A stretch of DNA of 64,000 bases from Saccharopolyspora sp. SCSIO 74807. GTDB taxonomy: Bacteria > Actinomycetota > Actinomycetes > Mycobacteriales > Pseudonocardiaceae. The first letter of the stretch is position 1; each line of letters begins with the position of its first letter. Of this stretch, positions 40,744-64,000 are shown piece by piece. Position numbers and translations under genes: made by a program. The notes under the pieces were generated by a model. That model saw only the letters and a list, made by a program, of their open reading frames with translations, searched no databases and was not told the origin of the DNA. The stretch is from assembly GCF_037023755.1 (NCBI RefSeq), contig NZ_CP146100.1, positions 1 through 64,000 on the forward strand, written 5' to 3'.

Positions 40744-40933
40744 GACACTCCCCTTCCCGCCGTGCCGGTCGCATGGCCGATGCTAACCCCGCGCGCTGCG
40801 GCGCCCGGCCGAGGGGTCGGCACAACGTCCCTGCACAGCAAGGACCTTCGTCCCTTGCCAGCACCGATCGCGGGAGGGCGCCCGGCACCCGGACGCGCCC
40901 GGAACCGGTGCCGGGACCACGGCGGGTGACGGC

Positions 40934-43106: not shown

Positions 43107-43182
43107 TGTGCCGACCCGGCCGGGACCGCGTCGCAGCGCCCGCTCTTTGCGGCCGGGACCGCGCGGCGGGAAGGATGGCGCG

Positions 43183-44183: not shown

Positions 44184-44953
44184 CGGACCGTGATCCCTTC
44201 CGCGCGCATGGCGGCCTTCACGTCGCCGATCCGCAGCTGTCCGAAGTGGAACACGCTGGCGGCCAGCACCGCGTCCGCCCCGGCGTGCACGGCGGGCGCG
44301 AAGTGCTCGACCGCGCCCGCGCCGCCGCTGGCGATCAGCGGAACGTCCACTTCGGCCCGCACCGCGCGGATCATCTCCAGGTCGAACCCGGCCTTCGTGC
44401 CGTCCGCGTCCATCGAGTTCAGCAGGATCTCGCCGACGCCGAGTTCCTGGGCGCGACCGGCCCACTCGACCGCGCAGATCCCGGTGCCGCGCCGCCCGCC
44501 GTGCGTGGTGACCTCGAAACCGGACGCGGTGGGCTCGCCGCCTTCCGGCACCCGCCGGGCGTCCGCGGACAGCACCACGCACTGCGCGCCGAACCGCCGG
44601 GACGACTCGCGCAGCAGCTCCGGCCGGGCGATCGCGGCGGTGTTCAGGCTCACCTTGTCCGCGCCCGCGCGCAGCAGCCGGTCGATGTCCTCGGGGCTGC
44701 GCACGCCGCCGCCGACGGTCAGCGGGATGAACACCTGCTCCGCGGTGCGGCGCACCACGTCGTAAGTCGTCTCGCGGTCCGCCGACGACGCGGTCACGTC
44801 CAGGAAAGTGAGTTCGTCGGCGCTCTCGCCGTCGTAGGTCTCGGCGAGTTCGACGGGATCGCCCGCATCGACGAGGTTGGTGAAGTTGACGCCTTTGACG
44901 ACCCGCCCCGCGTCCACGTCCAGGCAGGGGATCACACGTACCGCGACGGCCAT
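44180..44953 (-). CDS. hisF: imidazole glycerol phosphate synthase cyclase subunit
   Basis: 257-residue TIM barrel. [17 protein letters not shown] carries the first catalytic Asp, and [25 protein letters not shown] and [10 protein letters not shown] follow. It works with HisH, encoded about 1 kb upstream in the same operon. Confidence 0.97.
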
Positions 44954-46723: not shown

Positions 46724-47638
46724 TCACAGCGCGAGGAACTTCCGGATCGACTCGTTCAGGCCCGTGGGGCTCAGCCCGTGCGCGGCCTCGTGCTCCTCGG
46801 CCGTGCCGTAGGCGCGCAGCTCGGGCTCGCGCCGCACGCCCAGCGCGAGCAGCCGGTGCGGCACATCGGGCAGCGCGTCACCGACGGCGTGGCTGGACGT
46901 GCCGCTCAGGTACGGCTCGACCAGCACGACGTCCGGCGTCGAAGCCAGCGCCGCCGCCCGCAGGCCCGCGGAGTCGAACGGCCGGATGGTCGCCGCGTAA
47001 AGCACCGTGACGTCCATCAAGGCGGTGGCCGCGAGCACCGGCCGCAACATCGGTCCCACCGCGAGCACGACGCCTCCCCCGCCCTGGCGGACCACGCGGA
47101 ACCCGGGGCCGGTGGGCAGCGCCTCGTCGTTCTCCCGTTCGGTCAGCCGCAGGTAGACGCGGTCGTCCCCGCGCAGCGCAGCGGGCAGCAGCTCGGCGAC
47201 CTCCTGCGGATGCCCGGGAACGTGCACGGTCCAGTCCGGCAGGGTGTCGATCAGCGCCACATCGCCCGGGCCCATGTGCGTGCGGCCCGCGTCCGGGTAG
47301 TCGTAGGAAGCGCCCGTGCTCACCAGCAACGCCCCGCTGCCTTGGTGGTTGATGTCCAGCTTGAGCTGCTCGAACGGCCGCTCCAGCAGGAACGGCGTGA
47401 TCGTGTGCAGCACGGGGCGCATCCCGGCCAGCGCCAGCCCACCGGCCACGCCGACCATCGCCTGCTCGCGGATGCCCACGTTGAGCACCCGGTCCGGATG
47501 GCGTTCGGCTGCTTCGGTGAAGCGGTCCATGGAGATGTCGGCCAGCACCACGGCCAGCCGGGGATCGTGCTCCAGGGCCGTGCTCACCACGTCGGTGAAC
47601 ACCTCGCGCATCGTCTTGGGCGGCATCGTGCGGGCCAT
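46724..47638 (-). CDS. transketolase, C-terminal half subunit
   Basis: 304 residues containing the pyrimidine-binding domain and the C-terminal transketolase domain (MREVFTDVVSTALEHDPRLAV, RVLNVGIREQAMVGVAGGLAL, then GASYDYPDAGRTHMGPGDVAL). With the preceding gene it makes a complete two-subunit thiamine-diphosphate transketolase. The ATG lies 3 nt after the N-terminal subunit stop. Split transketolases often serve specialised sugar metabolism rather than the main pentose phosphate pathway. Confidence 0.9.
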   Translation of the reverse strand: MARTMPPKTMREVFTDVVSTALEHDPRLAVVLADISMDRFTEAAERHPDRVLNVGIREQAMVGVAGGLALAGMRPVLHTITPFLLERPFEQLKLDINHQGSGALLVSTGASYDYPDAGRTHMGPGDVALIDTLPDWTVHVPGHPQEVAELLPAALRGDDRVYLRLTERENDEALPTGPGFRVVRQGGGGVVLAVGPMLRPVLAATALMDVTVLYAATIRPFDSAGLRAAALASTPDVVLVEPYLSGTSSHAVGDALPDVPHRLLALGVRREPELRAYGTAEEHEAAHGLSPTGLNESIRKFLAL

Positions 47639-47641
47639 CAG

Positions 47642-48337
47642 TCAGTACTCCTTCGCTTCGACGCGGGCGATCACCGCGAGCGGGCGGTCCGGGCGGGTGT
47701 CGGTGAGCGCGGCGTGCAGCGCCTCGTGGTCCCGGCCGTCGACGGAACGCGCGGCCCAGCCTTCGCCCGCGAAGCGCTGTTCGATGCCACCCGGCCAGCC
47801 GTAGGACGACGAGGAGTTGTCGACCACGACGGTGGTGAGGTTGCCGAGCCCCCGGCGGCCCGCCACGGCGATGGCTTCGTGGTTGCTGCCCTCGTCGAGC
47901 TCGGCGTCGCCGACGAGCACGACCACGCGCGGCCCGGTGCGCCCCTGGGCGCGCAATCCCAGCGCCGTGCCCAGCGCCAGCGGTAGCCCGTGCCCGAGCG
48001 AGCCGCTGCCGATCTCCACGCCGGGCGCCAGCACGCGGTCCGGGTGGAAGCCGAGCGGAGAGTCGAACCGGCCCCAGCGGTCCAGCTCCGCCGGATCGAG
48101 GATGCCCTTGGCGGCGAGCACCGCGTAGTAGGCCATCGGGCCGTGGCCCTTCGACAGCAGGAAGCGGTCGCGCTCGGGGTGGTCGATGAGCTCCGGGCCG
48201 ATCGCCAGCACCCGGTCGTAGAGCACCCACAGCACGTCCAATGTCGAGGTGGCCGCCGGCGAGTGCTTCTCGTCCCCGGCCATCCGCCCGATCAGATCGG
48301 GCAGGTCGGCGTAGCCGAATTCGGTCGCAGTAGTCAT
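47642..48337 (-). CDS. transketolase, N-terminal (TPP-binding) half subunit
   Basis: 231 residues. Pyrophosphate-binding motif VGDAELDEGSNHEAI, with the diphosphate-side SKGHGPMAYYAVLAAKG and GSGSLGHGLPLALGTALG. It is the partner of the C-terminal subunit downstream. About 260 nt without a supported gene separate it from the rightward hydrolase. Confidence 0.91.
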   Translation of the reverse strand: MTTATEFGYADLPDLIGRMAGDEKHSPAATSTLDVLWVLYDRVLAIGPELIDHPERDRFLLSKGHGPMAYYAVLAAKGILDPAELDRWGRFDSPLGFHPDRVLAPGVEIGSGSLGHGLPLALGTALGLRAQGRTGPRVVVLVGDAELDEGSNHEAIAVAGRRGLGNLTTVVVDNSSSSYGWPGGIEQRFAGEGWAARSVDGRDHEALHAALTDTRPDRPLAVIARVEAKEY

Positions 48338-48597
48338 GCCGCGACTCTGATACTTATAGTTGACTTGAAGTCAAGCGATCATCCGCGACCTCGGAGATCT
48401 GATCTTTTCCCCGCGTTGAGCCGTTTTCCGCTGGATGTTGTCAGTGCGATGACAAAAACATCCACTTCGGACGAACGCGCGAGGACGGTCGCCGCACACG
48501 TGATCCGGATGGAGTATTGCCGCCGGACCTACTGCGAGTAGCTTGGGATTCCGCCGGACGCGCTCCGGTCCCTCCGCCCGGCGACGAAAGGCTTGCC

Positions 48598-50190
48598 ATG
48601 CCCCGCGCCTTCCCCGGAACCGCCGCGATCCTCGCGCTGACGACGACGGCGATGCTGTGCACCGCGGCGCCCGCATCCGCGGGCCGGACGCACACCCGGC
48701 TCGTGGAGATCGCCGCGCACGACGGCACTCCGCTGGTAGCCGCGGTCTGCGAACCGGCCGACCCCGGACCGCACCCGGCCGCGGTGCTCGTGGCCGCTTG
48801 GGGCGGCGGAAGCACGCAGAACATCGTGCCGTGCGAGAACTTCGCCGCCCGCGGGTACGTCGCGGTTTCCTACGGCACCAGGGGATTCGGCGAATCCGGC
48901 GGCCAGGTCGAGGTCGGCGGGCCGGACGACGTCGCCGACGTCTCGGACGTGATCGACTGGACGCTGGCCAACACCGATTCCGATCCGGCGCGGATCGGCG
49001 TGGGCGGGATCTCCTACGGCGCCGGGATCGGTCTGCTCGCCTCGGCCTCCGACCCGCGGATTCGGGCGGTGGCGTCGATGAGCGGGTGGGCGGACCTGGT
49101 CGAGTCGCTGTTCGGCAACCGCACCCGGCGCGCTGCGGTGGCCACGGTGCTGCGGATCTCCGGCGAGAAGGACGGCGACCTCTCCCCCGAGACCCGGGAG
49201 ATGCTCACCAAGTACATGTCCGGCGAGGACCGGGAACGCGTGACCGAATGGTCGCGAGTCCGCTCACCTTCCTCCTATGTGGACGGAATCAACGCGAACC
49301 GCCCCGCGGTGCTGATGCTCAACACCTGGAGCGAGACGGTGTTCCCGCCCGCGCAGCTCGCCGAGTTCCAGCACCGGCTGCACACCCCGAACCGGCTGGA
49401 GCTGATCCCCGGCGAGCACGCCGCGGCCGAGACCAGCGGGCTGCTCGGGCTGCCCAACGACGCCTGGAACGACACCTACCAGTGGTTCGACACGCACCTG
49501 CGCGGCGCGCCCGCGCCAACGAGCGCGCCGGTCGTGCTGCAGCCCAGAGGTGCCACCGACCGGCCGCGCGAGCAGTACCCGGACTGGAGCGCGATCAGCG
49601 ACCGGACCGAACGGTTCTTCCTCTCCGGCGAGGAAGAACTCACCGCCGACGAACCCGCGGACTGGTCCCGGACCATCCGAAGTGGACGCGACACGGTGGC
49701 GAACGGCGGTGTCCCGCTGGTGACCTACACGCTGGAAGCGCTGACCGGGAACCCGCCGACCGCGTTCCTGCCCGCCGTCGACCCCGCCGCGGGCGCCAAG
49801 TGGACCAGCCCGCCGCTACCGGAACCCCGCGTGTTGCGAGGAAGTCCGCACCTGCGGATGAGCGCGATACCGCCGGCCCCGAACGGCATGCTGGTCGCCT
49901 ACCTCTACGACGTGGACGCCACCGGCACCGGACGGATGATCTCGTACGTGCCGTACTCGTGGGAGAACGCCAAGCCCGGCGAACCGATCACAGTGGACAC
50001 CGACCTCCCGCCCACCGCTTACGACGTGCCCGCCGGGCACCGGCTCAGCTTGGTGGTCGACACCGAGGACCCGCTGTACTTCCTGGACGACAACCCGCCC
50101 AACGCACCGCTGACCTTGCAGAACCCGCCGGCGCCGGAGGGCGCGGCGACGCTGGACCTGGCGCTGCAGGACGGAAAGGAGCAATCGTGA
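48598..50190 (+). CDS. secreted CocE/NonD-type alpha/beta hydrolase
   Basis: 530 residues. Signal peptide to about residue 28 ([16 protein letters not shown]). The hydrolase core has [21 protein letters not shown], the nucleophile [11 protein letters not shown], the acid near [11 protein letters not shown] and the base in GEHAAAE. A C-terminal jelly-roll domain typical of Xaa-Pro dipeptidyl-peptidase/cocaine-esterase relatives follows ([20 protein letters not shown]). It would hydrolyse an ester or amide outside the cell. The stop overlaps the R2lox GTG by 4 nt, an unexpected coupling. Confidence 0.88.
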
Positions 50191-51137
50191 CCACCACCGA
50201 ACACCGGCCGGGCGGTACCCGGATCAACCCGGACTCGCTGCCGTACCGGTTGTGGCACAAGGGACATCGCAAGTTCTGGGACCCCGCAGCGATCGACTTC
50301 TCGCAGGACGCCCGGGACTGGCAGCAGCTGACCGACCGCCAGCGGTTCGCCGCGACGCTGCTGTGCGCGCAGTTCATCGGCGGCGAAGAGGCCGTGACCG
50401 AGGACATCCGCCCGTTCGTGCAAGCGATGGTGGCCGAGGGGCGCCGCGCCGACGAGCTCTACCTGAGCCAGTTCATGTTCGAGGAAGCCAAGCACACCCA
50501 GGGTTTCCGCCGCTGGCTCGACGCGGTCGGCGTGCAGCAGGACCTGCACCCGCACGTCGCGGACAACCCCGGCTACCGCGCGATCTTCTACGAGGCGCTG
50601 CCGGAGGCGCTGCACGCGCTGTCGGCCGATCCGAGCCCGGCGAACCAGGTGCGCGCGTCGGTCACCTACAACCACCTGGTCGAAGGCGTGCTCGCGCTGA
50701 CCGGCTACTTCCTGTGGAACAGCACGTGCGAGCGCTTCGGCATCCTGCCGGGGATGCGCGAGCTGATCCGGCGGATCAGCGAGGACGAGCGCAGGCACAT
50801 GGCGTGGGGAACGTTCACCTGCCGCAGGCACGTCGCCGCCGACGACTCGACCTGGGAGGTGGTGACCGAGCGGATGGACACGCTGCTGCCGCACGCGATC
50901 GGCCAGATCGAGCACGCCCTCGGGCGGTTGGAGGGCGATCCGTTCGAGATGCGCATCGAGGGGCTCTTCGAGTACGCCGCCGACCGCGCCGCCCGGCGGA
51001 TCAAGGCGATCGAGTCGGCCCGCGGGGTCCCGGTGGAGCGGATCGACGTGGACCAGGCGCCGGAGCGGCTGGAGGAGGAGTTCGGGCGGGAGGACGAAGC
51101 CGCGTTGCGCGAGGAGGCTTCCGCGGAAAACAATTAG
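50187..51137 (+). CDS. R2-like ligand-binding oxidase (R2lox)
   Basis: 316 residues of the ferritin-like, ribonucleotide-reductase-R2 fold. Metal ligands fit R2lox: Glu67 (GGEEAV), Glu100 and His103 (FEEAKHTQ), Glu166 (NHLVEGVL), Glu201 and His204 (EDERRHMAW). Val70 and Tyr161 are present, the pair that forms the ether cross-link in Mn/Fe R2lox; each position is one residue less than in the Mycobacterium tuberculosis protein Rv0233. The family binds a fatty acid next to a heterodinuclear Mn/Fe site; its reaction is unknown. GTG start, GTGA-coupled to the secreted hydrolase. Confidence 0.9.
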
Positions 51138-51337: not shown

Positions 51338-52654
51338 ATGCTGACGACGGCGAATCATTCCCAGGCGGCAACTCCCGACTCGGCCGATCCCAAGGCCCCC
51401 GGACTGTGGGCGGCGTTGCCGAGCGACCTCGCGCCCATCCTGCGGCCCGAACTGCGCAGCCTCGCGGCGCAGATCCTGGAGGAGATCCAACGCCGGATCC
51501 CCGAATACGCGCGGCCGATGGATCACAACTACGTGCACGCCATCCACCGCGGCGTCGAAGAGGCGCTGAGCCAATTCGTCGACCAGATCGCCGACCCCAC
51601 CGCCCCGCAGGAACGCTGCGCCGAAGTGCACCGCGCCCTCGGCAAGGCGGAAATGCACGAAGGGCGCAGTTTGGACAGCTTGCAGGCCGCCTACCGGCTC
51701 GGTGCGCGGCTCGCGTGGCGGCGCCTCGCGCGGATCGGCGAACGCGCCCGGGCCGCGCCGCGAACGATGCTGCTGCTCGGCGAAGCCATCTACGCGCACA
51801 TCGACGAGCTCGCCGCGCTGTCGGTGGAGGGCTACGCCGAAGCCCAAGCCCGCGCGGCGGGCACGCAGGCGCGCAGGCGGCGCAGGCTGCTGGAACTGCT
51901 GCTGTCGGATCCGCAGCCACCGCAACAGATCCTGGAAGAGACCGCATCGGCGGCGCAGTGGCCGCTGCCCGGCAAGGTCGTGGTCGCCGCGCTGGAACGC
52001 TCCGAACAGCAAGAGCCGCACACCAACCCGCTGGCCCGCTGGGAGGCGCTGGTCGACCTGGAATGCGCCCAGCCGCACCTGCTGGTGCCGTGCACCCAGG
52101 ACGAGCCGCACGACCTGCCGTGGAACGACCAGCTCGCCGGCTGGCGCGTGGTGATCGCACCACCGGTGGAGATCCGGCAAGCGCCGCACGCGCTGCGCTG
52201 GGCGCGGCGGCTGCTGGAACTGGCGGGCAACGGCGTGGTGCCCAACCGGCCGGTGTTGCGCTGCCGGGACCACCTCTCGAGCCTGCTGCTGCTCAGCGAC
52301 GAGAACCTCACCCAGGAGATCGTGCACACCCGGCTGGCGCCGCTGGAGAAGCTCAAGGCCAAGCAGCAGGTGCGGCTGGCGGAAACGCTGCTGGCATGGC
52401 TGCAAACCCGCGGCGGCGCACCGGAAGTGGCGCAACGGCTGCAAGTGCACCCGCAGACCGTGCGATACCGGATGCACCAGCTCGAAGACCTCTTCGGCGA
52501 AGACCTGAACGACCCGCAGGCCCGCTTCGAGCTGGAGGTGGCGCTGCGCGCCGCGGGACGGTTGCTGCCGTACGGGGCGCTGCGCGGCGAAACGGTCGAC
52601 AAGCCGACCGAACCCCTGCGCAAACCCGAAGATCCGGAGGGCGGAGTCACGTGA
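51338..52654 (+). CDS. PucR-type (CdaR-like) transcriptional regulator
   Basis: 438 residues. An N-terminal RsbR/GGDEF-like sensory region of helices (about 30-180) is followed by the PucR C-terminal HTH (LAETLLAWLQTRGGAPEVAQ, then RLQVHPQTVRYRMHQLEDLF). It probably senses a ligand and controls the coupled MFS exporter through the palindrome at 51230. ATG start with an AAAGAGAG ribosome-binding site. Its stop overlaps the exporter GTG by 4 nt. Confidence 0.88.
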   Translation: MLTTANHSQAATPDSADPKAPGLWAALPSDLAPILRPELRSLAAQILEEIQRRIPEYARPMDHNYVHAIHRGVEEALSQFVDQIADPTAPQERCAEVHRALGKAEMHEGRSLDSLQAAYRLGARLAWRRLARIGERARAAPRTMLLLGEAIYAHIDELAALSVEGYAEAQARAAGTQARRRRRLLELLLSDPQPPQQILEETASAAQWPLPGKVVVAALERSEQQEPHTNPLARWEALVDLECAQPHLLVPCTQDEPHDLPWNDQLAGWRVVIAPPVEIRQAPHALRWARRLLELAGNGVVPNRPVLRCRDHLSSLLLLSDENLTQEIVHTRLAPLEKLKAKQQVRLAETLLAWLQTRGGAPEVAQRLQVHPQTVRYRMHQLEDLFGEDLNDPQARFELEVALRAAGRLLPYGALRGETVDKPTEPLRKPEDPEGGVT

Positions 52655-54102
52655 GCGACGCGATGCAGGCCCCTGTCCGCCAGGCGCCGGTGTTGCTCGC
52701 GCTGGGACTGGCCGGGTTCGTGACCGCGCTGGACAACAACATCGTCAACGTCGCGCTGCCGACCGTGCAGGCGGAGTTGGGGGCCACGGTCCCGCAGCTG
52801 GAATGGATCGTCAGCGGCTACGTGCTGGCGTTCGCGAGCCTGCTCATCATCGGTGGGCGACTGGCGGACCTGGCGGGGCGCAGGCGGATTCTGCAGCTCG
52901 GGCTGGCGGCGCTGATCGTCACCTCGGTCACGGCCGGGTTCGCCGAGACCGCGCCGGTGCTGATCGCGGTGCGCTTCGCGCAAGGCGCATCGGCCGCGCT
53001 GGTGATGCCCGCCGCGCTGGCCGTGCTGGCCGCCGACATCACTCCGGCGCGGCGCGAGCTGGCCGCCGGGATCTGGACGGCGTCGCTGGCGGTGGCGCTG
53101 GCGCTGGGGCCGGTCGTCGGCGGTGTGCTCACCGAACACCTGCACTGGAGCTGGATCTTCTTCCTGCACCTGCCCGCCGGGCTGCTGACGATGGCGCTGG
53201 TGTGGTGGGGACTTCCGGACGTGCGGCCGGAACCGATGCCGTTGCGGCACTTGGACCCCGGGGGGCTGGCACTGTCCACAGTGGTGCTCGCGGCGGGCAG
53301 TTTCGCGCTGGTGGAGGGCCAGAGCATCGGGTTCGGCCAGCCGATCATCATCGCGGCCGGAGCGGTGACGCTGGCGGCGATTCCGGTGCTGGTCGCGGTG
53401 GAGCGGCGCGCCGCCGAACCGATGTTGCACCTTTCCCTGGTGCGCAACAAGGTCTTCGGCGGCGGCACGATCGCGCAGGTGCTGTGGGGAGTGGGGGTCA
53501 ACGGGACGCTGCTCTACACCTCGTTGTTCCTGCAGGACGTGCTCGAACTCTCGCCCAGCGCGGCCGGGATGGTCTTCGTGCCACTGGCCGGGCTGCTCGT
53601 GCTGTGCGTGCCGTTCGTGCCGCCGCTGAGCGCGCGGTTCGGCGCGCGGTGGACGGTGACCGCCGGAATGGTGCTGGTAGCGCTGGGATTGTGGCTGCTG
53701 GCCGGTTCCGGGCCCGGCACCACGGTGGCGGCGTTGATGCCCGGGCTGCTGTCGATCGGCGTCGGCTCGGCGTTGATCACCCCGTTGACCTCCGAAGTGC
53801 TCGGCGCAGTACCGACCGGCAGCGCGGGCGTGGCCTCGGCGATGATCAGCGCCGCGCGGGAGGCGTCCGGAGTGCTCGGGATCGCCGTCGTGGGCGTGGT
53901 GCTTTCGTTGACCAGCGACGCCGCATCGGCATCGGGCGCGGCGGCCGACGCCGCCTACTCCGCCGGTTACTCCGCGGGAATGCGGTTGGCCGCCGGGTTG
54001 GTGCTGCTCGGGGCGTTGGCCACGGCGTTCGCGCTGGCTCCGGCCAAGCCGAGGCGGTCGGCGAACATCGGCCAAGAGCGGTGCAACTCCCGTTCCCAAT
54101 AA
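52651..54102 (+). CDS. MFS drug/metabolite exporter (DHA2 family, 14 TM)
   Basis: 483 residues. N-terminal FVTALDNNIVNVALPTVQ (motif D1), GGRLADLAGRRRI (motif A) and LALGPVVGGVLTEH (motif C) identify a proton-driven DHA2 exporter. Its substrate may be a toxic compound or a product of the neighbouring polyketide locus. The GTG is coupled to the regulator. The last 136 nt overlap the 3' end of the convergent esterase gene. Confidence 0.92.
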   Translation: MSDAMQAPVRQAPVLLALGLAGFVTALDNNIVNVALPTVQAELGATVPQLEWIVSGYVLAFASLLIIGGRLADLAGRRRILQLGLAALIVTSVTAGFAETAPVLIAVRFAQGASAALVMPAALAVLAADITPARRELAAGIWTASLAVALALGPVVGGVLTEHLHWSWIFFLHLPAGLLTMALVWWGLPDVRPEPMPLRHLDPGGLALSTVVLAAGSFALVEGQSIGFGQPIIIAAGAVTLAAIPVLVAVERRAAEPMLHLSLVRNKVFGGGTIAQVLWGVGVNGTLLYTSLFLQDVLELSPSAAGMVFVPLAGLLVLCVPFVPPLSARFGARWTVTAGMVLVALGLWLLAGSGPGTTVAALMPGLLSIGVGSALITPLTSEVLGAVPTGSAGVASAMISAAREASGVLGIAVVGVVLSLTSDAASASGAAADAAYSAGYSAGMRLAAGLVLLGALATAFALAPAKPRRSANIGQERCNSRSQ

Positions 54103-55085
54103 GGCCAATCGTGCCTACCTGCACCGTAATAGTGCTCGGTGACCGCGATTCCCATCGCCTTCAGGCGCGAAGTCATCGCCAGCGAAGTCGACAACGCCGA
54201 CGGCTCCAGCGAATCCGGTAGCGCCCCCGGAGCGTCCAGCGGGCCGGGCAGGCCGTTGCCGCAGGAGACGTAGAGCGCGGTGCCGCGCAGCTGTTCGGCG
54301 TGGTCGAAGGGATTTCGCGCGGACCAGGTGGGGTGGTCCAGCACGGCACTGCCCCACATCGCCAGCGGGTCCTCCCCCTCGCGCACCAGAATTCCCTGCA
54401 CCACACCGGGAACGCCGGGCTGCAGGGTGTTCAGCAGTCCACTGTAGGAGGCCGCGGCGCGGAACATGCCGGGGTGGCGGAAGGCGTAGGCGAAGGAGCC
54501 GTAGCCGCCGACGGACAGGCCGGCGACCGCTCGGCGGTCCCCGGCGCCGTAGTCGCGCTCCAGGATGCCGCGCAGTTCGCTCAGGTGGAACGACTCCCAG
54601 TCCGGTTCACCACCGGCCCACCTGGTGTAGAAGCCGGCCGGGCCACCACTGGGAATCACGGTGAGCACGTCCTTGTCCGACATGAACCGCTGCACGTCGG
54701 TGAAATTCGTCCACGCCCGGTAATCCGCGTCCTCGCAGCAGCCGTGCAACAGGTAGAGCACCGGCCAAGTGCGGTCCGGATGCTTCTTCCAGCCGCGCGG
54801 CAGCAGCAGGCGGACGGGTGCGCTGGTGCCCAGAGCGGGCGAATAGATCAGCAGGTCGAGGGTGCGCGCGTCAAGCCGGTTCTCCTGCAGGACACTGGGT
54901 TCGGCGGCAGGATTTGGTGCGGTGGCAGGACCGGGTTCGGCGGCGCCGGATTTTGCAGCACCGGCCACTTCGGACGACGCGCCGACGACGGCCTCGGCGG
55001 GTGGCGTCGAGGCCCCCGTCGAGACCGCCAGGGCGCCCACCATCGACATGGTCAGCGACGCGCGCCACCACCGTCCACTGTTCAT
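53967..55085 (-). CDS. secreted esterase, antigen-85/esterase-D-like
   Basis: 372 residues. Signal peptide (SLTMSMVGALAVSTGASTPPAEA) followed by a Pro/Ala-rich linker. The alpha/beta domain shows WPVLYLLHGCCEDADYRAW, PSGGPAGFYTRW, the nucleophile AGLSVGGYGSFAYAFR and His in GAGRHDWPYWERELHRSWP. This is the fold of mycobacterial antigen 85 mycolyltransferases and EstD-type acyl esterases. It sits immediately downstream of the accD-PKS-FAAL genes on the same strand, so it may transfer or hydrolyse the lipid product outside the cell (inference). It overlaps the exporter gene by 136 nt at the 3' end. Confidence 0.85.
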   Translation of the reverse strand: MNSGRWWRASLTMSMVGALAVSTGASTPPAEAVVGASSEVAGAAKSGAAEPGPATAPNPAAEPSVLQENRLDARTLDLLIYSPALGTSAPVRLLLPRGWKKHPDRTWPVLYLLHGCCEDADYRAWTNFTDVQRFMSDKDVLTVIPSGGPAGFYTRWAGGEPDWESFHLSELRGILERDYGAGDRRAVAGLSVGGYGSFAYAFRHPGMFRAAASYSGLLNTLQPGVPGVVQGILVREGEDPLAMWGSAVLDHPTWSARNPFDHAEQLRGTALYVSCGNGLPGPLDAPGALPDSLEPSALSTSLAMTSRLKAMGIAVTEHYYGAGRHDWPYWERELHRSWPMFADRLGLAGASANAVANAPSSTNPAANRIPAE

Positions 55086-55134
55086 TTGTCGTGCCTTTCG
55101 TGCTCGAGCTGGTGCTGGGACCACGTCCGGTCCT

Positions 55135-56691
55135 TCAGAGCGGCATGGTCGAGTGCTTCTTGGGCGGGGTTTCCTGCCGCTTGTTCGCCAGCACCCGCAA
55201 GGCGCGCACCAAGTGCTCACGCGTGGTGGAGGGCTGGATGACGGCGTCGACGTAGCCGCGCTCGGCCGCGATGTAGGGAGTGGCCAATGTGGACCGGTAT
55301 TCCTCGATCAGCTTGGCCCGCACCGCTTCCTCGGTACCGTTGGCCGCGGCCTCGGCCAGTTCCCGCCGGTGCAGCAGGCTCACCGCGCCGGAGGCGCCCA
55401 TCACCGCGATCTCCGCGGTCGGCCACGCGAGGTTCACGTCCGCTCCGAGGTGCTTGGAACCCATCACCGCGTAACCACCGCCGTACGCTTTGCGCACCAC
55501 GACGGTCACCTTCGGGACGGTCGCCTCCGAGTACGCGTAGATCAGCTTCGCGCCGCGGCGGATGATGCCGTGGCGCTCCTGCTCGACACCCGGCAGGTAG
55601 CCGGGAACGTCGGCGAAGGTCAGCAGCGGCAGGCCGAAAGCGTCGCAGAACCGCACGAACCTGGCGGCCTTCTCGGAGGCGTCGATGTCGATGGTGCCCG
55701 CGTTCTGCGACGGCTGGTTGGCCACCACCCCGACGCTGCGGCCCTCGACCCGGCCGAACGCGCAGATCATGCTGCGCCCGAAAAGCGGCTGCACTTCGAG
55801 GAAATCGCCGTCGTCGAGGACGAGTTCGAGCACGCGGTGCATGTCGTAGCCCTGGTGCGGCTCGTCCGGCACCAGCACGTCCAGCTCTCCGGCCGCCCCC
55901 ACGTCCGAAGCGGACTCGTATTGCGGAGCGCTGTCCAGGTTGTTCGCGGGCAGGTAGCCGAGCAACGTCCGCGCCCAGTCGATGGCGTCGGCCTCGTCCT
56001 CTGCCAAGTGGTGGGCGTTGCCGGAGATTTCGCTGTTCGTCCGGGCACCGCCCAGCTCCTCCGCATCGGCCTGCGCACCGGTCACCGACCGCACCACCTC
56101 CGGACCGGTGACGAACATGTGCGAGGTCTTCCGCACCATGACGGTGAAATCGGTGATCGCGGGCGAATACACCGCACCGCCCGCACACGGTCCCATGATC
56201 AACGACAGCTGCGGGATGACACCGGAAGCCAGCGAGTTCCGCCTGCCCAGCTCGGCGTAGTACGCCAGCGAGACCACGCCCTCCTGGATGCGCGCACCGC
56301 CGGAGTCGTTGATGCCCACCACCGGGCAGCCGATCTTCATCGCCAGGTCCATCACCTTCAGGACCTTCTCCCCGAACGCTTCGCCCATGCTGCCGCCGAA
56401 AACGGTGAAGTCCTGCGCGAAGACGCACACCGGGCGCCCGTCGACCGTGCCGTGGCCGGTTACCACCCCGTCGCCGTACGGTCGCTGGTCGTCGGTTCCG
56501 TAGGAGCCACCGCGGTGCCGGGCGAGTTCGTCCAGCTCGACGAAGGAGTCCTCGTCCAGCAGCAGGTGGATGCGCTCGCGCGCGGTGAGCTTGCCCTTGG
56601 CGTGCTGCTTGCCCCGTGCACGCGCATCGGCGTCGTGCACCGCGGTGTCGTGCCGCCGCTGCAACGCCTGGATCCGTTCCGCGGTTGTCAT
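55135..56691 (-). CDS. accD: acyl-CoA carboxylase carboxyltransferase (beta) subunit
   Basis: 518 residues with two crotonase-like halves. N-half oxyanion region GINDSGGARIQEGV and GPCAGGAVYSPAITDF; C-half TFADVPGYLPGVEQE and RKAYGGGYAVMGSKHLG. It carboxylates an acyl-CoA to make the PKS extender, using a biotin subunit encoded elsewhere. Length and neighbours match mycobacterial AccD4, which supplies carboxyacyl-CoA to Pks13. The ATG overlaps the PKS stop by 4 nt (ATGA). Confidence 0.93.
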   Translation of the reverse strand: MTTAERIQALQRRHDTAVHDADARARGKQHAKGKLTARERIHLLLDEDSFVELDELARHRGGSYGTDDQRPYGDGVVTGHGTVDGRPVCVFAQDFTVFGGSMGEAFGEKVLKVMDLAMKIGCPVVGINDSGGARIQEGVVSLAYYAELGRRNSLASGVIPQLSLIMGPCAGGAVYSPAITDFTVMVRKTSHMFVTGPEVVRSVTGAQADAEELGGARTNSEISGNAHHLAEDEADAIDWARTLLGYLPANNLDSAPQYESASDVGAAGELDVLVPDEPHQGYDMHRVLELVLDDGDFLEVQPLFGRSMICAFGRVEGRSVGVVANQPSQNAGTIDIDASEKAARFVRFCDAFGLPLLTFADVPGYLPGVEQERHGIIRRGAKLIYAYSEATVPKVTVVVRKAYGGGYAVMGSKHLGADVNLAWPTAEIAVMGASGAVSLLHRRELAEAAANGTEEAVRAKLIEEYRSTLATPYIAAERGYVDAVIQPSTTREHLVRALRVLANKRQETPPKKHSTMPL

Positions 56692-59600
56692 GCGCCCTCC
56701 CTGGTGAGTGCGGACGTGCCGAGTACACCCGCGAGGTGCGCCGCGATGACGTCCACGTTCGGCGGGTCGATCATGGACAGGTGGTCGCCGGGTATCCGCA
56801 CCACTTCCGGAGCGGCCACGATCTCGTCCCACCCGAGCGCCTCGTCGGTGCGCAGGTAGCGCGGGTCCAATGTGGTCGTGGTGGTTTCGGCCTCCTGCGC
56901 TCGGTACAGCAGCACCCGTCCGTCGAACGGTCCGGGCTGATAGCGCTCCGCGATCCTTGCGTCCACATAGGACGTGTACTGGTGGTGCAGGACGCCTGCT
57001 CCCATGTCGATGTCCGCTCCCGACAGCGCACCGAGCACACGGCGCATCTGCTCGTCTTCGTCCAACCCCTGGAGCTCGGTCGAGCGCACCTGCAGCGCGA
57101 CGCCGTAAGTCGACTCGATGTGCTCGGCGAACCGGTCGAACCGGCGCAGCACGAGCTGTTCGGACGTGGCGCCGTCCGGTGCGGGCAACGGCAGAATGGT
57201 GTCGATCAGCGCGACGAACTCGACCGGCTCGCCGAGCTCGGTGAGCCGGCGCGCGGTCTCGTAGGCGAGACATCCGCCGAAGGACCATCCGCCGAGGCGG
57301 TAGGGCCCGTGCGGCTGGAGTTCGCGTACCAGGTCCGCGTACCGCTGCGCCTTGGCCTCGACGGAGTCCAGGTCGTCGAGCCGTTCCAGGCCGTAGCACG
57401 GCTGGTCGGCACCTAGGCTCGCCACCAGCGGCTGGTAAACGCTGGTCGGGCCGCCTGCCGGGTGGAAGAGGAACAACGGGCGCCCAGTTCCCGTCGTGCG
57501 CAGCGCGCGCACCGGGCCGTCGGTTCCTTCGAAGCGCTGCCGCAGCAGATCCGCCATCCCCGACACCGTCGGGGTGCCGAACAACTCCTCCGTAGTGTCC
57601 GATGAGGACAGGCGTTCGCGAATTCCGCGGGCCACGACGTCGGCTTGCTCCCGCGTCCCACCGAGGTCGTAGAAGTCCTCGGCGACGCCGAACTCGACCG
57701 GGCCCAGTGCCTCGGCCCACAGATGTGCGATCCACCGCTCGGTCGCGTCCCGCGGGCCGATGCGTGCCGACTCGACGACCTCCGCAACGGTCCCGAGGCC
57801 CAGCTGTTCGGCCAGGTGCCGGGCGATGTCGTGCAGGCTCGCACCGCGCAGCAGCAGCGCGGGAGGGACCGCCACGCCGAAATCGCGTTCGACTGCGTTC
57901 CGCGCCCGGGTCGCCATCAGCGAGTCGAGCCCCAGCATCGTCAGCGGCGCGGCCGGGTCGAGGTTTTCCGCCGAGCCGCCGAGGATTCCCGCGACCTCCG
58001 ACCTGAGATGCCCGGTGATCGATTCGACGGCTTCGGCGGGCCGGTCGCGCGGCAACGAGTCGACATCGAACCGGCCCGCCGTCTTCGGCTCCGCGGTGAC
58101 GACCGCATCGAAGAGCGGACGGGAGCAAAGTTGCGGGAAATACTCCGCAGCGCGCGCCGCGTCGAGCCGCGCCACACCGGTCGCAGTGCGCCCGGAGGCC
58201 AGCACCGCCTCCAACGCTTCGACGCCTTCGGCAGGGGTGAGCTGGTCGATCACCCGCGCGAGCGGGGATTCCGCCGCACCGCCGACGTCCGCCCAAAGTC
58301 CCCAATGGATGGTCGTGGCAGGAAGTCCGCGCGCACGGCGCAACCTGGCGAGATCGTCGGTCCAGGCGTTCGCGGTGGCGTAGGCGGCCTGTCCGGGAGA
58401 TCCCAGCAGGGCAGCCGCGGAGGAGAACACCACCCACCAGTCCAGCTCGTGGTCAACCGTGGCCTCGTGCATCCGCCAAGCGGTGCGCGCCTTCGACCGC
58501 CACACCTGCTCGATCGCGTGCTCGTCGAGATCCGCCACGAGACCGTCGAGCAACGCACCTGCGGCGTTCACGACACCGCGCAACGCCATGCCGTTCTCCG
58601 TGGCCGCAGCGACGAGCTGCGCTGCGACGTCCGCAGTGGACACATCGCCGGTCACCACCCGGATCTCGGCACCCTCGGCCTCGATTTCGGCGAGTTCGCG
58701 GGCGACCGCAGCGGACGGTTCACCCCGGCCGTTGAGCACGATGCGCTGCGCCCCGCGCTCGCCGAGCCATCTCGCGACCGTGCGGCCCAAGCCGCCAAGT
58801 CCGCCTGTCACCACGTAGGCAGCCGGACGAACGACCTGATCGGTGCGGATCCGCCCCAACTCGGCGCGGTGCAGCCGCGCCACTTCACGATGTTCGCCGC
58901 GACGCCGGACCTCGTCGTCCGGAGCATCGGCGACGAGTTCCGCGGCCGCCGATGCCGTTCCGTCCGTGACCAGCATGCTCACCCGCAGTTCCGGGTGCTC
59001 GAACGCGAGCACCCGCACGAGCGCCCGCAAGCCCCAATCAGCACCGGAATCATCCGATGTGGACAACCACAGCCGGATGTTCAGATCACGCCGGGACATT
59101 TCTCGCACGACGGCCGACGCGTGCAGCACGTGCTCGGCTCGCTCGGTCGAATCCGGGGAATCCGCCGGGAAAACGAGCACGACACCGCGTGGCGGGAGGC
59201 TTTCGTCATCGACGACCACGTCGAGCCCGGACTCGGGCCGGTGGAGGTCGCCGCGCACCGCCCGCTGGCCGGCGTCCCGCAATGCCGACACGAGGCCGTC
59301 GTCTTCGCCCAGGACCAGCCAGCTGCCTGCTTGCGCCGTGCCCGGCTCGGCCAGGTCCGCCGAATCCCAGCGCAGCTCCAGAAAAGCTTCGTCCAGTGGA
59401 CGTGGCGGGGGCGCGAGCCCGCGAGCGCGGATCTCGGCGACCTCCAGCACCGGCACGCCTTCGCCATCGGTGACCAGCAGCGAACCGATCGGTTCCGGAC
59501 CACCGGTGTGCAACCGCGCGTAGCAGCGGACCTGCTCGGGCAGCTGGCCGAGCAGGCGCACTCCCGCCAATGCGACCGGCACGCCGATCCCGGCTTCCGG

Positions 59601-62600
59601 GGCGCCGTCCCCGAGACCCGCGGCCAGCAGACTTTGCAGGCACGCGTCCACCAATGCGGGATGTGCCGCGAACATCTCGGCATCGGCGGCCTGCTCCGGC
59701 AACGCGACCTCGGCCACCGCGAGGCCACCACGGGCACGTGCGGAACGCACCCCGCGGAAGGTCGGCCCGTAATGCTGGCCGGCCGCGCGCAGCGCCGAAT
59801 ACAGATCGACCTCCACACTGTCCACTTCGTACTTTTCGAGTCCGGACCGGGTCTCGCTGCGGACGAGGGTTGCCGTGGCATGGCAGGTCCATCTACCGGT
59901 GACCGATCGCGAGTGCACCTCGACACGCCCGGCACCGGAATCGTCCGGCGTGAACGTGGTCGTGACGGGCACGTTGTCCGCCAGCAGCAGCACTTGGTGC
60001 AAGTCGAGCGATTCCAGGCGCAATGCCCCGAGGTCGGCGTCCCACGCCTGCGCACCTGCCGCGAACGCGATCTCCAGGTAGGCACTGCCGGGCAGCACCG
60101 GAGTGTCCTGCACCTTGTGATCGGCTAGCCAGGGCAAAGCTTCTGTTCCGACGTCGCCGCGCCACGCGCTTGCGCCGCCCGGCAGGTCGACTCGCAGGCC
60201 CAGCAGTGGATGTCCGGCCGGATCAGGTGCGGAACGTGTTGCGACCCAATGGGATTCGTGCTGCCACGCGGCCGGCGGCACATCCACGAGACGACCTTTC
60301 CGATACCCGGTGACCGGTATGCGGCCGTTCGTGTGCAGCTCGGCGAGGGCCGTGTGGAAGGTTTCGGTTCCATCCGTCCCGCGGCGGCCGGTGAACGCCG
60401 CCACCGGACGGGAAACTCCCGCCTCCGCCAGGGTCTCCTCGATCGCCGTGGTGGCGACCGGGTGCGGGGCCAGCTCGGCGAAAGTGCCGAAACCGGCCTC
60501 CGCTGCGGCGCGCACGGCCTGCTCGAACCGCACGGGGTTGCGCAGGTTGCGGACCCAGTAGTCGGCGTCGAACGCGGGGACCGAGCCAGGATCCGCCGTG
60601 CTGAACACCATTGTGGACGTTTCCCGGGGGGCGATCCCGGAGAGCTCCTCGCGCAACCGCGCCAGCACCCCGTCCACGGCAGCGCTGTGCCCGGCGCCGG
60701 ACACGCCGAGCAGGCGAGCACTGCGGCCCGCGCGCTCGAAGTGCGTCACCAGCAGCTGCACCTCGTCGGCGGGCCCGGTGACCGTGCACCGGACCGGGGA
60801 CGCGTGCACCGCCACGTCCACCCCGGGGAAAAGCTCCGCCAACGCCTCCACTTCCGCGGCCGACGCTTCCACGGCCGCCATCGCGCCGTTTCCCGCCGTG
60901 TCCACTTCGGACAGCAGTCGGGAGCGCGCGGACATCACACGCAGCCCGTCGCTCTCGTCGAGCGCTCCCGTGGCGACGGCCGCGGCCACTTCACCCAGCG
61001 AATGCCCGATCACCGCAGCAGGTTCGACACCGTAGGCGCGCCACAGCTCGGCATAGGCGACCTGCAGTCCGAACAGGACCAGCTGCGTCCGGTGCACATC
61101 ACCGAGATCGTCCTGCCCGCTCAACACCGCGCGCAGGGAGAACCCGCTCTGCCGCAGGTATTCCGGGTCGAGCCGGTCGACCGCCGCGGCGAACGCGGGC
61201 TCGTCGGCCAGCAGCTCGCGGCCCATTCCGGCCCACTGCGAGCCGTATCCGGAGAACACCCACACGATCCCCTTGTCACGCGTGGTCACCCTGCCCCGGA
61301 CGCCGCCGGATCCGGCGGCGAGCGCACGGAGGCCGTCGAGCACGCCGTCCCTGCCACGAGCCACCACGGCAGCCCGCTCGGGATGCTGCTCCCGCCGGTG
61401 CGCCAAGGTGTGCCCGATGTCGGCCAGGCCGGCAGCACGCCCCTCGGGCGTTGCCATCCACTCCGCCAGGTCCGCGGCCGCGCGAAGCATCCGCTGCTCG
61501 GTGATTCCGGAGACGACGAAGGATTGCACGCCATCGCCGTCCGGGTTCCGGCGCCGCGAAGGCATCCGCCGCCACGCCTCCAGGACGACGTGCGCGTTGG
61601 TGCCGCCGAAACCGAACCCGGAGACCCCCGCACGCGCCACACCCGAGTACTTCGGCCAGTTCCGCGCCGCACCGACCACTTCCAGCCCGGACTGCTCGAA
61701 CGGGATGTGCGGGTTCGGCTCCCGGTAGTGCAAGCTCGCGGGTAGCGAGCCGTGCCGCATCGACAGCACGACCTTGATCAATCCCGCGATTCCCGCAGCG
61801 GCCTCCAGGTGCCCGAGGTTCGTCTTGACCGATCCCAGCAGCAGCGGCCGCTGCGCAGGCCGACCGCGGGCCAGCACCGAGCGCAGGCCCTCCGCTTCGA
61901 TCGGGTCGCCGAGCAACGTGCCCGTCCCGTGCGCTTCGACGTAGTCCACAACGGACGGATCGAGGTCCGCACCTGCGTAAGCACTACGCAGCAAGTCCGC
62001 CTGCGCCACCGGATTCGGCGCCATCAGGCCGTTGGACCTGCCGTCCGAGTTGACCGCCGAGCCCCGCACGACCGCCAGGATCCGGTCGCCGTCGCGGTTC
62101 GCATCGGAGAGTCGTTTGAGCACGACGACACCGCAGCCTTCACCGCGCACGATGCCATCGGCGGAAGCGTCGAAAGCCTTGCACCGACCGTCGTCCGACA
62201 ACGCTCCGGCACGATCGAAGTTCGCCGTGATCGCCGGCGACAGCAGCAGGTTCACACCGCCGGCCAGCGCGACCCGGCTCTCGCCCGACCGCAGGCTCGC
62301 GCACGCCTGGTGCACCGCCACCAGCGAGGACGAGCACGCCGTGTCGATCGCGGAACTCGGCCCCCGCAGGTCCAGGAAGTACGACAACCTGTTGGCCACA
62401 ATGGACAGTGCTGCGCCGGTTCCGGTCCACGCGTCCACCGCTCGCAGATCGCGCGTGGTCAACGCGCCGTACTCGGTGGACGAAACCCCGACGAACACGC
62501 CGGTCGCGCTGCCGCGCAACGCCGAAGGCACCACGCCCGCGTGTTCCAGGGCCTCCCACGCAACCTCCAGCAGCAGCCGCTGCTGCGGGTCCATGACCGC

Positions 62601-63140
62601 GGCTTCGGTGGGCGAGATCTCGAAGAACTCCGCGTCGAACTCGTCCACTCCGTCCAGGAATCCGCCTGCCTTGGGCAGTTTGGACAGCGCGGGGTCCGCC
62701 CCGGAGAACCTCTCCCAGCGCCCCTCGGGGACCACGCCGACACCGCTGGCACCGGACTCCAGCAGCTCCCAGTAGCGGCGCGGTCCTCCGGCTCCCCCTG
62801 GGAAGCGGCAGCCCACGCCCACCACCGCGACGGGTTCGTCCGGCTCCGGTTTTCGCGGGCGGGGGAACGGATCCGGCGACTCGTCGGCGCCGTCGGACCC
62901 GTCCGGTTGCGCCGCCAACGCCGCGGAAAGCCGGTCGATGGTCGGGTGCTCCCACAGCAGCGTCGGAGGCAACCGCTGCCCGACGATGTCCTGCACCCGC
63001 CCGGCCAGCTCCACCGCGTCCCGCGAGGACAACCCGAACTCCTGGAACGGGCGCCCGGTGTCCACCGAACCCGGGGGCAGCCCGAGCCGTCCGGCGACGT
63101 GCTGCGCCAGCCAGTCCGCCCACTCCGCGCGATCACGCAT
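56688..63140 (-). CDS. type I polyketide synthase: ACP-KS-AT-DH-KR-ACP-(degenerate carrier)-TE
   Basis: 2150 residues. N-terminal ACP with [12 protein letters not shown] (Ser39), the form loaded by fatty-acyl-AMP ligases. KS about 100-520 (Cys269, His404, His444). AT about 625-920 (GHSLGE, Ser714; His818 in an atypical GAGH). DH about 975-1245 (His1008 in [11 protein letters not shown], Asp1165). KR about 1440-1640 (TGGLGGLG, Ser1573/1574, Tyr1587). ACP with MLGLDSL (Ser1740). A second carrier-like segment 1800-1870 reads DLGGTREQ where Ser is expected. TE 1885-2145 (GWSFGG Ser1953, His2120). No ER or methyltransferase. It would extend an activated fatty acid once and release the product. The ATG overlaps the ligase gene by 8 nt. 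Confidence 0.95.
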
Positions 63141-64000
63141 GATCGGCCTCCAAGTAGCGCTCGCGGCACAACCGGCGGGCGACCTTGCCGCTCGACGTGC
63201 GCGGAACGGTGTCCGGTTCCACCAGCACGAGATCGCTGAGCAGCACACCGTGCTCGGCCGAGACCGCCGAGCGCACCGCGCTGGTGATCTCCGCGGGGTC
63301 GCGGTCGGACGCGGCGACGCGCCTGCCGTACTCGGCCACGACGACCAACCGCTCACCTTCGGCCGCGCTGATCGCGAAAGCGGCGGTGTGGTGCTTGCGC
63401 ACCGCCGGGTGCGCCTGCTCCACGGTCAGCTCCACGTCCTGCGGGTAGTGGTTGCGGCCGTCGATGATGATCACGTCCTTCATCCGGCCGGTGACGAACA
63501 GCTCGCCGCCGTCCAGCACACCGAGGTCGCCGGTGCGCAGCCAGCCGTCCGCGGGCAGCTCACCCGCGCCTACCGGTTCGGCGCCTGCCAGCTCGACGCC
63601 AAAGGTGTCCTGCTCGTCCCGGCCCCAGTAGCCCTGGCCGGTGTTCGGGCCGTGCACCCAGATCTCTCCCACGCCGCCGTCGGGCAGCACGGTGTGCGAG
63701 TCCGGGTCGACCACCGCGACCCGCTGTCCCACCGGGCGGCCGCAGGAGACCAGGTCGCTGACCGCCTCAGTCCCCTGCGGTGGTCGTGCTCGGCCCAGGG
63801 CGAGCTGCTCTCGGCTGAAACCGGCCACCCGCGGTTCGCTGCCCGAATCGGTCACCGAGACGAAAACCGTCGCCTCCGCCAAGCCGTACGAACAGCGGTG
63901 CGTCTCCGGGCGCAGACCGCAATCCGCGAACGCCTCGTTGAACCGGTGCAGCGTCTCCGGGCGCACCGGTTCGCTGCCGTTGATCAGTGAAACAACTTCG
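63133..64000 (-). CDS. fatty-acyl-AMP ligase (FAAL), 5' end beyond the window
   Basis: C-terminal 289 residues of an acyl-adenylating enzyme that continues past the right edge. SYGLAEATVFVS, then DGWLRTGDLGVLDGGELFVTGR and MKDVIIIDGRNHYPQD are the A5-A8-like motifs; GRNHYPQD is the FadD32-type FAAL signature. It would activate a fatty acid as acyl-AMP and load it directly on the N-terminal ACP of the downstream PKS, whose ATG it overlaps by 8 nt. Confidence 0.92.
   Translation of the reverse strand, partial: EVVSLINGSEPVRPETLHRFNEAFADCGLRPETHRCSYGLAEATVFVSVTDSGSEPRVAGFSREQLALGRARPPQGTEAVSDLVSCGRPVGQRVAVVDPDSHTVLPDGGVGEIWVHGPNTGQGYWGRDEQDTFGVELAGAEPVGAGELPADGWLRTGDLGVLDGGELFVTGRMKDVIIIDGRNHYPQDVELTVEQAHPAVRKHHTAAFAISAAEGERLVVVAEYGRRVAASDRDPAEITSAVRSAVSAEHGVLLSDLVLVEPDTVPRTSSGKVARRLCRERYLEADHA

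Follow-up and report, generated by a model that had tools for sequence, protein, structure and literature searches.

The closest described relatives of the locus considered here are the fadD32-pks13-accD4 operon of the Corynebacteriales, which serves mycolic condensation, and the mycolyltransferases of the antigen-85 (Ag85)/PS1 family. In mycobacteria, β-keto reduction is carried out by a separate enzyme, CmrA. The polyketide synthase (PKS) of Mycobacterium tuberculosis, Pks13, contains a non-functional acyl carrier protein (ACP) domain, the psiACP, before its thioesterase (TE) (PMC11649247; PMC9210659), and the inactive domain that follows its acyltransferase (AT) corresponds to the N-terminal half of a dehydratase (DH) and is designated DH* (PMC11649247). 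In some corynebacteria, the absence of mycolates is accompanied by loss of this operon (PMC5936774). Here we describe a four-gene locus of Saccharopolyspora sp. SCSIO 74807 that lies at the right end of the window, the analyzed stretch of 64,000 nt (bases 1-64000 of the 6.69 Mb single contig NZ_CP146100.1). The protein families, the active-site residues, the co-occurrence of the genes and their shared origin with the mycolate genes are computed results. On balance, the locus probably represents a mycolate-type condensation cassette, by which two chains would be condensed to an α-alkyl β-hydroxy or 2-enoic acid that would be exported and transferred outside the membrane. The analysis thus supports the Pks13/FadD32/AccD4/antigen-85-like interpretation of an initial annotation, which had been made from the DNA sequence of the window.

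Organization of the locus

The locus comprises four genes, all on the minus strand, for a fatty acyl-AMP ligase (FAAL), a PKS, an acyl-CoA carboxylase β subunit (AccD) and a secreted antigen-85-family transferase (EST):

63133..64000 in the window (whole gene ~64,896-63,133), minus strand: FAAL, FadD32-like fatty acyl-AMP ligase, 587 aa (PF00501 + PF23024)
63,140-56,688 from the ATG, minus strand: PKS, 2150 aa, ACP-KS-AT-DH-KR-ACP-psiACP-TE (Pfam domains; closest PDB match Pks13)
56,691-55,135, minus strand: accD, acyl-CoA carboxylase β subunit, 518 aa (PF01039), Gly for Phe and Ala for Asp
55,085-53,967, minus strand: EST, antigen-85-family acyltransferase, 372 aa (PF00756), Ser-Glu-His triad, HDWPYW motif

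The first 896 bases of the FAAL gene lie outside the window and were taken from the genome contig. FAAL overlaps with PKS by 8 nt (ATGCGTGA) and PKS with accD by 4 nt (ATGA), in agreement with the earlier proposal that FAAL, PKS and accD form a single operon. On the right side, the four-gene operon stops at FAAL. The N-terminus of EST is signal-like, as judged by eye only. Within the PKS, the following domains were delimited, including a ketosynthase (KS) and a ketoreductase (KR):

62907..63107, minus strand: N-terminal ACP (GLSSRDAV), PP-binding
61587..62837, minus strand: KS domain, PF00109/PF02801
60324..61265, minus strand: AT domain with SGAGH motif, PF00698
59415..60212, minus strand: DH domain with both catalytic His and Asp, PF21089/PF14765
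58287..58823, minus strand: KR domain with both catalytic Ser and Tyr, PF08659
57813..58007, minus strand: C-terminal ACP with its serine kept (LGLDS), PP-binding
57567..57761 (bounds approximate), minus strand: psiACP, a second carrier-like domain without the serine (LGGTREQ), from sequence and alignment
56712..57482, minus strand: TE domain with Ser and His kept, PF00975

Pfam finds two PP-binding domains along with KS, AT, DH, KR and TE, so that the N-terminal ACP, the C-terminal ACP-TE and the additional DH and KR of the initial annotation are all recovered. The third carrier domain, the psiACP, is not reported by Pfam and adds to that earlier account. Like Pks13, the window PKS has two serine-bearing ACPs and a serine-less psiACP before the TE. 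Unlike Pks13, which possesses only half a pseudo-dehydratase (PMC11649247), it has a full DH and a KR. The presence of these two extra domains in a mycolate-type operon outside the mycolate bacteria is confirmed, and it was strengthened by the comparison of related loci.

Distribution across actinomycetes

A FAAL search of 397 genomes of the order identified 108 with a match at E ≤ 1e-125, the mycolate-type family f8 included. From the matches of this and other FAAL searches, a selection of 61 loci was examined, and four were dropped, namely L034, a duplicate on the same contig as L065, and L079, L080 and L110, which have no adjacent FAAL-PKS pair. There remain 58 FAAL-PKS loci, including the window; L034 and L035, a near-copy of the window locus in Saccharopolyspora sp. 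HNM0986 with a 99.8% identical FAAL, were left out of the counts. Eleven of the 58 loci, all of f8, are laid out as in mycolate bacteria, with genes of the Ag85 type upstream, and it is from this layout that f8 was named mycolate-type. The other 47 loci, to which the window belongs, represent Streptomyces and, in families f1, f2 and f13, 16 genus codes (with the named Actinopolyspora treated as one with g40, its group in the KS tree). EST lies within the fetched stretch in 35 of these 47 loci, and all four genes do so in 22. The four-gene order was indeed found in other Pseudonocardiaceae, where a search for it had been recommended, and because the same order recurs across many genera, the arrangement of the genes is not a matter of chance.

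The catalytic residues are also widely conserved (the counts of residues and motifs exclude L077 and L096, with a double or incomplete PKS). In 40/40 cassettes, the active Ser or Cys is kept in five domains, namely the N-terminal and first C-terminal ACPs, KS, AT and TE, and the serine of the N-terminal ACP is likewise present in 11/11 Pks13 proteins. The DH His, the DH Asp and the KR Tyr are each found in 38 of the 40. At the psiACP column, only one of the 40 cassettes has a serine; the window PKS has a Thr. DH and KR are absent from the PKS of five loci (L037, L038, L071, L101 and L102). Two of these, L037 and L038, belong to Streptomyces sp. BK239 and S. coacervatus and are arranged as accD-FAAL-PKS(ACP-KS-AT-ACP-TE)-EST-PucR, a Pks13-like layout with an Ag85-type partner. 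In two loci of family f2, L072 and L105, the DH histidine is gone and the KR is kept, possibly an intermediate towards the Pks13 layout.

Relationship of PKS and FAAL to Pks13 and FadD32

Among PDB entries, Pks13 is closest to the window PKS, and the mycocerosic acid synthase-type family ranks second. A KS tree of 77 rows unites the cassettes, Pks13 and the five reduced PKSs in one clade against 20 reference KSs, with a support of 98 in the SH-like approximate likelihood-ratio test (SH-aLRT); the reference KSs were picked among the strongest matches of five genomes, not at random, and two of them attach nearest to this clade. A KS-AT tree, which took 43 of the 58 in-group PKSs, places 43 cassette, reduced and Pks13 rows on one side of a branch (SH-aLRT 99) and 8 other PKSs on the other. 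Inside the KS-AT clade, the placement of Pks13 among the cassettes is weakly supported, and the alternative topology with Pks13 outside was not rejected (approximately unbiased test, p 0.42 and 0.41). The PKS thus belongs to the Pks13 line and shares common ancestry with the mycolate genes, so that the phylogeny check proposed along with the initial annotation came out in its favour. The window locus also shares the order FAAL-PKS-accD and a GA[SG]H-type AT motif with the fadD32-pks13-accD4 operon. The mycocerosic acid synthase-type PKSs resemble the window PKS in being single modules that contain DH and KR and serve lipid synthesis in actinobacteria, whereas the latter lacks an enoylreductase, has its own TE, N-terminal ACP and accD, and is separated from the reference rows in KS-AT.

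For FAAL, the relationship to FadD32 is less clear-cut. The first PDB matches are 'Acyl-CoA synthase' entries (5d6j, 5icr), followed by FadD32 (5hm3). In the FAAL tree, from which the fragmentary L073 was omitted, the cassette FAALs and FadD32 share one group (92), a group that is neither exclusive nor complete, as detailed below.

As a type I PKS with a TE and a FAAL for loading, the enzyme could also be the first or last module of an ordinary modular polyketide line. FAAL loading occurs in lipopeptide and polyketide clusters, and the related locus L077 contains a second KS-AT. This explanation is already contradicted by the results, and we consider it so improbable that it can practically be set aside. 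No other KS was found near the locus, since the remaining seven of the eight KS matches of the genome at E ≤ 1e-60 all map to 5.93-5.95 Mb; the PKS groups with Pks13 in the KS tree and, at 99, in the KS-AT tree; and the single-module layout recurs across genera. Extension of the sequence to the right, also recommended with the initial annotation, revealed no continuing polyketide cluster. Instead, FAAL is followed by a divergent secretory lipase gene (65,337-66,584), a two-component pair and an SDF-type transporter gene.

Remnants in Pks13 and a likely common ancestor

Both remnants known from Pks13 have counterparts in the cassettes. The psiACP profile of the cassettes aligns with the pre-TE region of 11 Pks13 proteins (hhalign 98.4%, E 9.4e-15), and the post-AT region of the same 11 proteins matches the beginning of the cassette DH (98.8%, E 4.5e-17 including the AT tail; 97.6%, E 3.1e-12 without it). 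A hidden Markov model (HMM) of the Pks13 DH* region detected six cassette rows at E < 1e-4 (best 2.9e-9) and the window PKS only at 0.23, while none of the 8 reference PKSs fell below E 1; the E-values of the DH models refer to a small custom database. Because DH* and the serine-less ACP of Pks13 align to the DH and psiACP of the cassettes, both lines probably descend from an enzyme of that architecture. At least a DH and a psiACP are likely to have been present in the common ancestor of the cassette PKSs and Pks13.

Going further, we tentatively suggest that the cassettes may be the surviving form of the ancestor of mycolic condensation. In such a scenario, which is possible and not yet probable, an ACP-KS-AT-DH-KR-ACP-psiACP-TE protein, already accompanied by an AccD for long chains and a transferase resembling Ag85, would have made α-branched envelope lipids, and the mycolate lineage would have lost its KR and the latter half of its DH, leaving DH*. 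Many 'mycolate-free' Pseudonocardiales might then carry an overlooked reduced or dehydrated mycolate-like lipid, possibly oxidized by an R2-like ligand-binding oxidase (R2lox) where one is present.

AccD and the specificity for the extender

The classification of AccD depends on the method. In the PDB ranking, the propionyl-CoA carboxylase PccB is ahead of AccD5 and of AccD4 (a chain of entry 9t97 that we take to be AccD4 from its short name, D4). In the AccD tree, the cassette AccDs and AccD4 group together (SH-aLRT 92), and the PccB group is their sister (99); the grouping with AccD4 is thus upheld, although the best pairwise match is a PccB. The pocket residues lead to the same assignment. 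In MccB, the carboxylase of stambomycin biosynthesis, Ala occupies the position of an Asp in PccB, and Gly replaces the Phe of enzymes for acyl groups of up to 4 carbons, changes that were described in a carboxylase acting on longer acyl-CoAs (PMC5187497). The window AccD has Gly at the Phe position and Ala at the Asp position. Ala at the latter is universal, in 32/32 cassette AccD rows (31 loci plus the duplicate L034) and 11/11 AccD4 proteins. Phe is missing throughout at the former, where the cassette AccDs have Gly (22), Ala (4), Ser (4) or Val (2) and the AccD4 proteins Gly (10) or Ala (1). Two AccD paralogues found in the genome, which may hold others, both have Phe, combined with Asp or Ile at the second position, and one of them is of the PccB type. 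Judged from its aligned sequence, the window AccD therefore has the pocket residues of long-acyl-CoA carboxylases, as does MccB, in which Ala likewise replaces Asp and a small residue replaces Phe (PMC5187497); unlike MccB, which feeds a modular macrolide PKS, it is encoded in an operon with a single Pks13-like PKS. A carboxylated acyl-CoA extender, which had been deduced earlier from the mere presence of accD, is now backed by these specificity residues.

The AT motif varies with the presence of accD. GA[GAS]H occurs in 31/31 accD-bearing loci and in 11/11 Pks13 proteins, and in 2/14 accD-less loci; the window has SGAGH and Pks13 [KR]GA[SG]H. For comparison, YASH is a methylmalonyl and HAFH a malonyl motif (PMC6164871). 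These data bear on an alternative in which AccD would be an extra propionyl-CoA carboxylase and the product a methyl-branched fatty acid made from methylmalonyl-CoA. It would account for the propionyl-CoA carboxylases as best pairwise matches of AccD and for the accD-less relatives L070 and L074 with their YASH/VASH-type AT, the former being the methylmalonyl motif (PMC6164871). We regard it as improbable, because the window AT motif is near that of Pks13, and because AccD lacks both the Phe and the Asp of the short-chain enzymes, which are present together in the separate PccB-type paralogue. AccD as a plain propionyl-CoA carboxylase was rejected on the pocket residues and the tree. L070 and L074, together with L075 and L108, form a related PKS group without accD that has YASH/VASH/VAAH-type AT motifs and an MMPL transporter beside three of the four loci; this group is possibly a sister system for methyl-branched lipids.

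EST, an antigen-85-type transferase

Among PDB entries, corynebacterial PS1 and Cmt1 rank first for EST, followed by Ag85A/B/C. In an alignment of cassette ESTs (without that of L074), the triad Ser and His are found in 34/34 sequences, the acidic residue is Glu in 31 and Asp in 3, and both tryptophans of HxWxxW are present in 34/34. EST, a PF00756 protein, thus has both the Ser-Glu-His triad and the HxWxxW motif of mycolyltransferases, from which acyl transfer is predicted. In its AccD pocket residues and in an Ag85-family partner of matching triad and motif, the locus resembles the mycolate operon and its mycolyltransferases. The motif is rare in the family at large, as only 3 of 28 PF00756 loci of four genomes have it, and all three are the cassette ESTs.

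EST and FAAL co-occur. A relative of EST (E ≤ 1e-50) was found in 44/44 genomes whose FAAL match reaches E ≤ 1e-140 (38 + 5 + the window's own) and in 3/30 listed genomes, a subset of those without a FAAL match. Four genomes with borderline FAAL matches (1.3e-140 to 2.5e-129) have none, so that the first count becomes 44/48 if they are taken as positive. Within g1, g40, g43, g38 and g46 the two genes are jointly present or jointly absent; g41 is partly discordant, with two genomes that have EST and no FAAL match. The EST relatives of G106:C1 (L177) and of G172 from g41, whose genomes have no FAAL match at E ≤ 1e-125, may be orphan transferases or the remains of a lost cassette. EST is encoded elsewhere in the genome in G202, beside a relative of the same MFS transporter that adjoins EST in the window (L179), and in G036 and G134 without any queried neighbour (L180, L182).

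These findings have to be set against a second alternative, that the same condensation yields a soluble natural product of lipid nature, such as a signal or an antibiotic-like branched acid or ester, which EST, lipase and a CocE-like hydrolase would process or detoxify and the MFS transporter would export, with no envelope component involved. Several features fit such a product, namely the DHA2/EmrB-type MFS gene as the commonest neighbour, the secretory lipase and CocE-like neighbours, the patchy presence of the cassette within genera, the version in Streptomyces, and the reshuffled gene order in several loci. It would leave unexplained why EST carries the mycolyltransferase triad together with HxWxxW, a motif not found in the other 25 of the 28 PF00756 loci, why an EST relative accompanies every strong FAAL match, and why an MMPL gene adjoins 6 of the 47 loci. 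In our judgement a soluble product is unlikely, yet it deserves serious attention. An MMPL family search of the window's genome gave matches at 3.965 Mb and, weakly, at 3.698 Mb.

Proposed pathway

For the condensation cassette, which we consider the probable reading, a pathway can be drawn up on the models of Pks13, AccD4 and Ag85, and its substrates, product, acceptor (trehalose or other), MFS export and envelope location are inferred from these. Together with a biotinylated α subunit encoded elsewhere, AccD would carboxylate an acyl-CoA of medium or long chain length, and the AT would load the resulting alkylmalonyl (2-carboxyacyl) extender onto the C-terminal ACP. A second fatty acid would be adenylated by FAAL and loaded onto the N-terminal ACP, and the KS would join both chains by decarboxylative Claisen condensation. 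The KR would then reduce the β-keto group and the DH might remove water, giving an α-alkyl β-hydroxy or an α-alkyl α,β-unsaturated acid. By analogy with Pks13, the TE would hand this acid to a carrier, a sugar such as trehalose. After export by a transporter (an MFS gene lies beside 29/47 loci and an MMPL gene beside 6), the secreted Ag85-family enzyme would move the acyl group to an extracytoplasmic acceptor.

A number of observations weigh against this pathway or against the relationships on which it is built. Streptomyces is not expected to have mycolates, and its version of the cassette (L037, L038) implies that the acceptor need not be arabinogalactan. The top NCBIfam family for the PKS is indeed Pks13 (NF040607), with 1397.7 bits, under the cut-off of 2100, and FadD32 (NF038339) is only the third family for FAAL, with 556.5 bits, under the cut-off of 975. 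All trees are quick searches with SH-aLRT values only and no bootstrap. In the FAAL tree, several other actinobacterial FAALs fall inside the group of cassette FAALs and FadD32, and three cassette FAALs (L077, L106, L109) fall outside of it. The best pairwise match of AccD is PccB of S. coelicolor. The link of the AT motif to accD (Fisher 3e-9 by loci) comes down to three independent tree-aware contrasts, of which two are for, none is against and one is a tie. Similarly, the difference in EST occurrence between genomes with strong FAAL matches and those without (Fisher p 3e-17) comes from statistics that ignore kinship and from a FAAL threshold that was set after the results. In 12 of the 47 loci, the fetched stretch contains no EST, and the MFS transporter of the window is of the drug-efflux type. 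In the reverse search with the cassette-DH HMM, four non-Pks13 PKSs (best 1.3e-34) beat every Pks13 (best 1.5e-7), although a weaker match of Pks13 is also expected from a decayed domain; the strongest match among the reference rows is L173 (G031), presumably 'Mas-like'. Finally, mycolic acids are reported to be restricted to Corynebacteriales, and Pseudonocardiales and Actinopolysporales to possess arabinogalactan and lack mycolic acids (PMC6194230). The host is therefore probably mycolate-free, as previously assumed, on the strength of this literature for its group.

The locus differs from mycolate loci not only in this host group, reported to be free of mycolates, but also in the position of EST, which directly follows accD instead of lying upstream of FAAL, and in the MFS gene alongside. 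The relatives of the cassette in many actinomycetes thought to lack mycolates point to an unrecognized lipid, and because it would be reduced or dehydrated differently, the predicted lipid class could escape routine mycolate tests. No description of such a cassette was found in the literature searched, a coverage that did not extend to most subscription papers. With a complete DH and KR in an operon outside the mycolate order and an Ag85-family enzyme beside it, the origin of mycolic condensation becomes testable, and the cassettes may show an earlier evolutionary state of the mycolic acid system.

Conserved neighbourhood

On the left side, four conserved neighbours on the plus strand stretch the locus to 48.5 kb:

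52651..54102, plus strand: MFS transporter of DHA2/EmrB type, candidate exporter (PF07690; TIGR00711 204.5 bits, cut-off 230.2)
51338..52654, plus strand: PucR-type HTH regulator (PF13556)
50187..51137, plus strand: R2lox, R2-like ligand-binding oxidase (NF006199 500.3 bits, cut-off 286, equivalog passed)
48517..50190, plus strand: CocE/X-Pro peptidase-like hydrolase, secreted-looking by eye (PF02129, PF08530; TIGR00976 92.8 bits, cut-off 66.3)

The MFS gene is convergent with EST, and its frame as called overlaps the end of EST. Clustering of the flanking genes of 46 non-mycolate loci recovered the MFS transporter in 13 genera, the PucR-type regulator in 9, the CocE/X-Pro-type hydrolase in 5, R2lox in 4 plus that of the window, and MMPL proteins in two sets of 3 genera. 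By tblastn, the MFS relatives beside the 29 loci include some with just 29-33% identity, and a PucR relative was also detected beside both Streptomyces cassettes. The complete order CocE-R2lox-PucR-MFS-EST-AccD-PKS-FAAL-lipase is present in three Saccharopolyspora, namely in the window and, as assembled from overlapping stretches, in G003 and G001.

R2lox adjoins CocE in 9/9 loci in which it was seen, and the CocE-R2lox pair (48517-51137 in the window) is found beside the cassette in five genera, the genus of the window, g38, g43, g16 and g46. R2lox binds a long-chain fatty acid, and as of 2019 its physiological function was stated not to have been identified (PMC6399176); for the Geobacillus protein, alkane hydroxylation was described in 2024 (PMC10867098). 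The window R2lox passes the R2lox equivalog cut-off but sits in a conserved neighbourhood of lipid synthesis, so that the protein gains a concrete setting in which its role could be tested.

Farther to the left, the window contains housekeeping genes, for glutamate synthase at 28404-33104 and for indole-3-glycerol-phosphate synthase, anthranilate synthase and a histidine-biosynthesis protein at 39845-44953. At 46724-48337 on the minus strand, a transketolase is split over two adjacent genes, which encode its N- and C-terminal parts.

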